DNA from: Stenotrophomonas maltophilia
GTDB taxonomy: Bacteria > Pseudomonadota > Gammaproteobacteria > Xanthomonadales > Xanthomonadaceae
Assembly (NCBI RefSeq): GCF_002799245.1
Contig: NZ_NEQV01000002.1
Coordinates: 434,001 to 498,000, forward strand
Reading direction: 5' to 3'
DNA: 64,000 nucleotides
Shown here: positions 37,781-54,006 of the stretch, one piece after another
How the letters are laid out: every line of letters starts with the position of its first letter
How positions within the stretch are numbered: the stretch's first letter is position 1
Program-made: the position numbers and the translations under genes
The notes under the pieces: model-generated
What the model saw: only the letters and a program-made list of their open reading frames with translations
The model's database searches: none
Told to the model about the DNA's origin: nothing

Positions 37781-37886
37781 GGGTGGAGAGGGTGGAGTGA
37801 TCGGGACCGTTCGCCGCATGGAGGCGGCGATCGAGCCTGCAGGGACGCATTTACGGTGTTTCCCGATCACTCCACCCTCTCCGCCC
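37781..37886. repeat. Long hairpin element, copy A
   Basis: 26-nt arms (37781-37806 and 37861-37886) pair along their length with one G-T wobble. They enclose a 54-nt centre that contains CGCCGCATGGAGGCGGCG, GAGCCTGCAGGGACGCATTT and ACGGTGTT. The centre is homologous to the centres of copies B (53516-53611) and C (53778-53879), but the arm sequences differ between copies. The rest of the 443-nt gap 37565-38007 contains the ompW terminator and no visible gene. Confidence 0.85.
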
Positions 37887-53423: not shown

Positions 53424-53436
53424 GGGCGGGGCGAGC

Positions 53437-53611
53437 AGGGCTTGCAGCCCTGCACCTGCTGCAAACCGGAGCAACAGCAACGTCAACGTCAAAAGCTTGC
53501 TATCCGCGGGATGGCGGGGCGGTGTCGGAGTGCGGGGACGCTGCAAGTACGTCCCTGTAAGCTTGGCAGCCGCATCCATGCGGCTGACACCCCGCACTCC
53601 GACACCGCCCC
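53437..53611. repeat. Long hairpin element, copy B, with flank
   Basis: Perfect 22-bp arms (53516-53537 and 53590-53611) enclose a 52-nt centre with CAGCCGCATCCATGCGGCTG and GTACGTCCCTGTAAGCTT. On the reverse strand the centre aligns with those of copies A and C. The upstream flank (53437-53515), with CCTGCACCTGCTG and CAACGTCAACGTCAAAAGC, recurs inverted after copy C, so 53437-53940 as a whole is a large inverted structure. Confidence 0.88.
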
Positions 53612-53642
53612 ACCTCTGACAGTTCACTGCGGCTGTTGGTAG

Positions 53643-53753
53643 GTGTCGACCTTGGTCGACACGGTAGATCCACGCCATGCGTGGATGCATTTCGATTCCA
53701 ATTCGAAATATTCGTTTCCGATGGAGATTCATCCACGCATGGCGTGGATCTAC
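53643..53753 (+). repeat. GTAG repeats: two types side by side
   Basis: GTGTCGACCTTGGTCGACAC (53643-53662), preceded by GTAG, matches the second palindrome in the 84-bp array, in reverse orientation. Next to it a dimer runs from GTAGATCCACGCCATGCG (53664) to CGCATGGCGTGGATCTAC (53753), with perfect 23-bp arms. This locus looks like a single-copy relative of the array unit. Confidence 0.9.
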
Positions 53754-53777
53754 TGCAGATCACGGAGATCTGTTGAA

Positions 53778-53879
53778 GGCGGGGTGGGTCCGGTTGCGGG
53801 GGCGTGAGCCGCATGGATGCGGCGACCGAGCCTACATGGACGTATTTACGGCGTCCCCCGCAACCGGACCCACCCCGCC
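53778..53879. repeat. Long hairpin element, copy C
   Basis: Perfect 25-bp arms (53778-53802 and 53855-53879) enclose a 52-nt centre containing GAGCCGCATGGATGCGGCGA, CGAGCCTACATGGACGTATT and TACGGCGT. The arms are G-rich on the left and differ in sequence from those of copies A and B. The following flank (53880-53940), with GCTTTTGACGTTGACGTTGA, is the inverse of the copy B flank. Confidence 0.88.
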
Positions 53880-54006
53880 ATCCCACAGATTGCCCGCTTT
53901 TGACGTTGACGTTGATTCAGCAGGTGCAGGGCGCAGCCCTGCCGATACCCCCTCCTGCGACGGTTCGTCGCACGGGCAACCCTGGACCCGGCTCTACACT
54001 GGTGGG

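Follow-up and report, generated by a model that had tools for sequence, protein, structure and literature searches.

Control by CsrA is usually pictured as a balance between its mRNA targets and a few dedicated small RNAs. The protein favours CANGGANG loops and is able to span a pair of sites approximately 18 nt apart, and sponges of the CsrB/RsmZ type are single dedicated genes whose RNAs each carry several GGA hairpin loops. In print, TwoAYGGAY (RF01731) is predicted to bind CsrA (PMC4333381), and Ysr224 (RF02770) is listed as one of the 20 bacterial sRNAs with the highest prevalence (PMC9029176). Described repeats include YPAL/RU-2 of Yersinia (PMC2759123, PMC2229807, PMC2267715), with YPAL presented as mobile and its target duplications as variable (PMC2229807), and the SMAG/GTAG REPs of Stenotrophomonas (PMC2613905, PMC3733652). 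The element described below is real, dispersed, and structured, and it belongs to a known superfamily as a variant with long arms. Its family is already in print under three names, namely YPAL/RU-2, TwoAYGGAY, and, on the opposite strand, Ysr224; no paper joining these names was found in the open-licence literature.

The window, i.e., the whole stretch of DNA analysed, comprises 64,000 nt of Stenotrophomonas maltophilia (GCF_002799245.1, contig NZ_NEQV01000002.1, positions 434,001 to 498,000 of the forward strand). A preliminary description had placed three copies of a long hairpin in it, and all three (A, B, and C) were found, B being measured as 53513-53614 on the minus strand. Copies were matched with R1, a covariance model of the core (66 nt, 22 pairs) built from 26 sequences. 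The features are as follows.

37781-37886, plus strand: element A, whole hairpin (arms, fold, and R1 match G000:C2:471801-471866)
37781-37806, plus strand: 5' arm (P1) of A, from arm pairing
37861-37886, plus strand: 3' arm (P1) of A, from arm pairing
37811-37830, plus strand: P2 hairpin of A, loop AUGGAG (sequence; structure columns 11-30)
37835-37857, plus strand: P3 hairpin of A, loop AGGGAC (sequence; structure columns 35-57)
53513-53614, minus strand: element B, whole hairpin (arms, fold, and R1 match C2:487531-487596 minus)
53567-53586, minus strand: P2 hairpin of B, loop AUGGAU (sequence and covariation structure)
53540-53562, minus strand: P3 hairpin of B, loop AGGGAC (sequence and covariation structure)
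53778-53879, plus strand: element C, whole hairpin (arms, fold, and R1 match C2:487796-487861)
53806-53825, plus strand: P2 hairpin of C with tandem G-A, loop AUGGAU (sequence and covariation structure)
53830-53852, plus strand: P3 hairpin of C, loop AUGGAC (sequence and covariation structure)
53435-53453, no strand: palindrome GCAGGGCTTGCAGCCCTGC, left of the B-C block (sequence; single in the empty site L132)
53926-53942, no strand: 17-nt near copy of palindrome GCAGGGCTTGCAGCCCTGC, right of the B-C block
53664-53753, no strand: GTAG-type palindrome pair between B and C (inverted repeat)

The long paired arms, another feature of the preliminary description, were confirmed. The 26-nt arms of A consist of 25 complementary positions and one U-G, the 25-nt arms of B (53513-53537 and 53590-53614) are 96% paired, and the 28-nt arms of C (53775-53802 and 53855-53882) are also 96% paired, with 25 perfect pairs inside 53778-53879. 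Overall, the window hairpins measure 102-106 bp, with arms of 25-26 bp. None of 200 shuffled sequences folded as stably as A (z = -9.2), B (-8.7), or C (-9.1). The centres do align when B is reversed, the shared blocks being real on the minus strand of B, and the GGA motifs start 23 nt apart in each copy. B and C are arranged head to head, with the GTAG-type palindromes in the middle. At low thresholds, Rfam also gave matches to numerous microRNA families, which were rejected as an artefact of the long, G+C-rich arms. Elsewhere in the window, SECIS_3 (RF01989) gave a full-length match at 707-765 on the minus strand (81.4 bits, cut-off 63), suggesting that a selenoprotein gene, probably formate dehydrogenase, is likely present there on that strand.

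The core forms a three-way junction of the long arms (P1) and two hairpins with ANGGAN loops, P2 (7 + 2 bp) and P3 (3 + 3 bp with a 5-nt bulge). In A3, a host alignment of 25 distinct copies drawn from A, B, and 24 of the 30 pattern loci (L002, L004, L016, L023, L025, and L027 omitted), 94.4% of cells were paired and 15 of 22 pairs had changed on both sides; double-changed cells numbered 97, compared with 33.5 after shuffling and at most 7 with the partners slid. Tandem GA/GA at P2 columns 11-12/29-30 occurred in 12 of the 25 copies and accounted for 13 unpaired cells at columns 11 and 12, while the remaining copies paired normally. An alignment of 31 distinct copies from 29 genomes, which was fitted to R1 and hence biased toward its structure, was 98.1% paired, with 18 of 22 pairs changed on both sides and 176 double-changed cells (50.0 shuffled). 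Site A supplied 14 orthologs, 11 of them distinct; in their gapless MAFFT alignment, unfitted to R1, 98.9% of cells were paired, 19 of 42 pairs had changed on both sides, and 59 cells were double-changed (17.1 shuffled). Double changes exceeded shuffles among host copies, genomes, and site-A orthologs, in agreement with the proposal that the arms differ in a compensating fashion; a lack of compensatory change among orthologs had been named as evidence against this proposal, and site A showed the opposite. The loops are closed by C-G in 31 of 31 distinct copies from the class, and GGA was present in 146 of 150 P2 loops and 149 of 150 P3 loops.

A3 columns 50 and 53, in the bulge of P3, also covaried (T occurring with A, and C with G) despite being no more than two bases apart; this pattern may reflect a tertiary contact or subfamily linkage.

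DNA palindromy alone predicts equal numbers of G-T and A-C mismatches, setting aside strand-biased C-to-T mutation. In 160 copies (165 found, arms of at least 15 bp required), the GGA strand carried 131 G-U and 21 A-C mismatches, or 85:20 by distinct context (p = 1e-10) and 90:20 by arm cluster. The ratio was 153:30 in 150 copies under the same limit, a set overlapping the first, 49:3 in class loci, and 41:11 in host copies, where L016 entered with only 4 pairs because of a one-base gap. This excess suggests that one strand is constrained, in the simplest case as RNA, rather than a cruciform. Because a duplex cruciform has no preferred strand, the protein-bound cruciform put forward in the preliminary description is disfavoured, an objection that does not extend to a single folded strand of DNA, whereas the suggestion there of selection for structure is backed by both the covariation and the G-U excess. 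From the alignments, a folded structure on a single strand is well supported. Relative to neighbouring genes, the class set showed no sense bias (19 sense and 34 antisense copies), and G-U:A-C was as biased in antisense copies (48:7) as in sense copies (21:4), indicating that the strand constraint does not act via cotranscription with neighbours; the small host numbers were 6:4 and 5:2, respectively. No conserved flank was seen beyond the arms in the four genomes compared, G059 excepted, which argues against a common promoter. The G059 copies (G805 locus, loci L216-L223) had common flanks well past the arms, suggesting that the element there sits within a longer repeat.

A pattern search of the host genome allowing up to 3 mismatches found 32 places, compared with 0 for the reversed control. 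With 150 of 6498 candidates scored, R1 matched the host genome at a minimum of 78 places (E <= 0.01); counted manually from coordinates, 46 of these are grouped into 23 head-to-head pairs, each within 400 nt. Of the gammaproteobacterial genomes sampled, 76 of 370 had R1 matches, as did 64 of 272 genera, a wide, patchy, multicopy spread in which up to 14 matches were recorded for any one genome (up to 13 in the phylum sample below); of two congeners in the sample, one had at least 14 matches and the other none. In a phylum sample whose share outside the class is unstated, 37 of 397 genomes carried matches, all within the class. The earlier statement that the core resembles no known RNA family did not hold, as RF01731 and RF02770 both match. 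RF01731 found nothing at gathering score within the window; at E <= 1 it gave three host matches, which scored 31.7-35.9 bits against a cut-off of 43 and each fell on an R1 copy in the same orientation, and none in 14 control genomes. One of 33 class loci scanned, the R1 relative L079, reached 44.0 bits and thus exceeded the cut-off. RF02770 matched 29 of 31 carrier genomes and 0 of 14 controls, and none of the 31 reached its cut-off of 70. Among the host matches listed, 21 of 22 overlapped R1 matches, all 21 on the opposite strand. A Ysr224-like match at G000:C2:913400-913505 of the host had no R1 match.

We interpret A, B, and C as copies of a dispersed structured element, likely RNA, that is predicted to capture CsrA/RsmA on two GGA-loop hairpins, and we give this reading a probability of roughly one in two. 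Of the functions considered, the predicted capture of CsrA is the likeliest. GGA in paired hairpin loops, by which CsrA-binding RNAs are recognised, is found in the element family. The long arm would hold the two loops with their GGA starts 23 nt apart and one CsrA dimer bridging them; the core would be kept in sequence, and the arms would be required only to pair. Every copy that is transcribed would supply one more site for CsrA, making the set a scattered decoy or a collection of local sites, and copies would have spread through an activity supplied in trans. Of the 76 carriers, 75 encoded CsrA, compared with 249 of the 294 remaining genomes (p = 0.0003 with kinship ignored; carriers counted by eye), making 324 of 370 in all. 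Carrier G175, a draft genome, gave no CsrA match, and its family mates G056 and G264 have CsrA. Inserted loop modules tend to preserve GGA hairpins, which counts for this reading, as do the covariation, the G-U excess on the GGA strand, the nearly universal GGA loops with their C-G closing pairs, and the published CsrA prediction for TwoAYGGAY. Counting against it are the 249 CsrA-bearing genomes without an R1 match, the absence of GGA from 4 of 150 P2 and 1 of 150 P3 loops, the lack of alignment of copies with their neighbours, and a copy between edd and eda that is antisense and absent at 12 of 56 loci.

The main rival is a nonautonomous single-stranded DNA transposon, likened to IS200/IS605, REP/RAYT, and attC sites, in which one DNA strand folds, an enzyme supplied in trans reads the loops, and CsrA is uninvolved; we consider this rather unlikely. 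A strand bias regardless of gene orientation would suit it, and G-T mismatches are milder than A-C in folded DNA too. It would also explain many near-identical cores with differing arms, as in G272, where 12 copies have 12 different arms and identity is 40% in the outer arms, 97% in the cores, and 100% in the P2 stems. A single precise empty site was found, and it falls at a palindrome: the B-C block, flanked in the window by GCAGGGCTTGCAGCCCTGC and its 17-nt near copy, is missing from L132 (G402), where a single GCAGGGCTTGCAGCCCTGC remains. L132 would be explained either by insertion at a dyad, the mode published for YPAL, or by deletion between repeats. In contrast, no linked or recurrent transposase was found beside host copies (81 flanking genes) in the 25 most frequent of 123 families. 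The loop rule ANGGAN, with its free second base, fits CsrA, and we know of no transposase signal that fits it. Long residence and compensating change at orthologous sites, described below, also speak against this rival. The preliminary description had set the element apart from transposons, which would conserve their ends and let the middle drift; the family, however, is of the YPAL/RU-2 type, printed as mobile.

Plain transcript-end hairpins, stopping transcription or shielding mRNA 3' ends, are a poor candidate. Their placement would be appropriate, with 0 of 69 host copies inside genes according to a codon-based caller (a cruder caller flagged 4 of 57) and 22 copies in convergent versus 7 in divergent settings. 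However, inspection of A, B, and C revealed no U-tract 3' of the arms, the neighbour's own terminator-like hairpin with a T-run stands between that gene and A, and a plain terminator could do without GGA loops and a conserved junction. The 58 full host copies had 45 distinct 25-nt arms, the commonest types being GGGTCCGG (17 copies, including C), GGTGGGGCGG (13, including B), and GGCCGGG (13); thus, the arms of A, B, and C do differ, as first described, but arm types recur and are not strictly copy-specific. A module common to 13 host copies (L011, L022, L025, L026, L029, L046, L047, L095, L104, L108, L109, L110, and L112) enlarges P3 and is inserted directly 3' of the loop CANGG. Nine of the 13 have a GGA tri-loop hairpin at the 3' end of the module, and 12 retain the P2 GGA. 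A different module, bearing AGGA hairpins, lies in or near P2 in L004, L025, L023, and L383, the last at the edd-eda site of another species.

At site A, the hairpin was present in 14 of 17 loci having both flanks (30 fetched), and at site L106 in 16 of 28. At site L099, the element occupies the spacer that separates edd (ILVD_EDD) from eda (KDPG aldolase) and is antisense to the two genes. The 56 genus loci of this site, the best matches from 61 genomes searched, had the core in 38 (29 of 30 and 9 of 26), a deletion or remnant in 6 (L316, L366-L369, and L382), and a short spacer without trace of the element in 12. In two genomes, the G+C-rich P2 stem at L099 was replaced by TAGAAAAC/GTTTTCTA with the same loop. 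Between nearest neighbours at the three sites, 1121 pairs were unchanged, 55 had changed on one side, and 25 on both, in comparisons that are not independent because many involve L325 or L343. Whole arm alleles differ between close species at site A and L099, and site A (L158-L171) has two unrelated, perfectly paired alleles in close species. The contrast between outer arms and cores in G272 had suggested that every insertion makes its arms afresh; this was rejected, since the three orthologous sites show small changes instead, the differing whole alleles notwithstanding. The G796 spacer orthologous to a G272 copy holds an unrelated palindrome.

Template correction of one arm by the other at the DNA level, keeping arms matched without selection on RNA, is very unlikely. 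It is favoured by G360, in which 377 of 380 counted arm pairs were Watson-Crick and nearest copies differed by 28 two-sided and 1 one-sided changes. Such a process would be strand-blind, yet G-U outnumbered A-C across the 160 copies (5 to 2 in G360 alone), and one-sided changes predominated at the three orthologous sites, several comparisons involving L325. Arm-to-arm copying, offered in the preliminary description, is thus unneeded at those sites, while G360 still speaks for it. A retroelement, with the GGA strand as the RNA intermediate of its own spread and a bacterial counterpart of SINEs, would share the RNA-like strand constraint in any gene orientation and the variable target duplications published for YPAL (PMC2229807), but it has no promoter, no reverse transcriptase came to light incidentally, and it is highly improbable.

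Returning to CsrA capture, we regard as possible, although doubtful, the broader proposal that a small repeat among the commonest in gammaproteobacteria is a CsrA decoy, dozens of junction RNAs, each showing two GGA loops on an arm whose sequence may vary provided that pairing is kept, titrating the master regulator of carbon metabolism. If this were true, YPAL, TwoAYGGAY, and Ysr224 (on its other strand) would be parts of the Csr system uncounted so far, and the CsrA balance would be changed by tens of additional RNAs in each genome, with two sites apiece. A selfish repeat would thereby gain a hold on host metabolism, three database entries would merge, and the strand of Ysr224 would be put in doubt.

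Compared with known systems, the element shares with CsrB/RsmZ-type sponges the presence of several GGA hairpin loops per RNA; it differs in that its copies are dispersed, carry two loops each, and have no known promoter. Like the SMAG/GTAG REPs, it is intergenic, abundant, and often paired, and a pair of the GTAG type separates B from C; those REPs, however, are short palindromes with a GTAG tag and without the GGA junction. RU-2 is longer than the window copies (168 bp) and has weaker outer arms, but YPAL/RU-2 is likewise intergenic and multicopy (target duplications at dyads are reported for it), and the published RU-2 core, with loops AAGGAT and ATGGAT, makes 21 of 21 junction pairs when one extra base is allowed. 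Host copies fall below the gathering score of TwoAYGGAY (43 bits) and depart from its strict loop in leaving base 2 free (T, G, A, or C; ANGGAY), and the tandem G-A reported for TwoAYGGAY occurs in 12 of the 25 distinct A3 copies, whereas the outer stem, the two AYGGAY hairpins, and the strand are the same.
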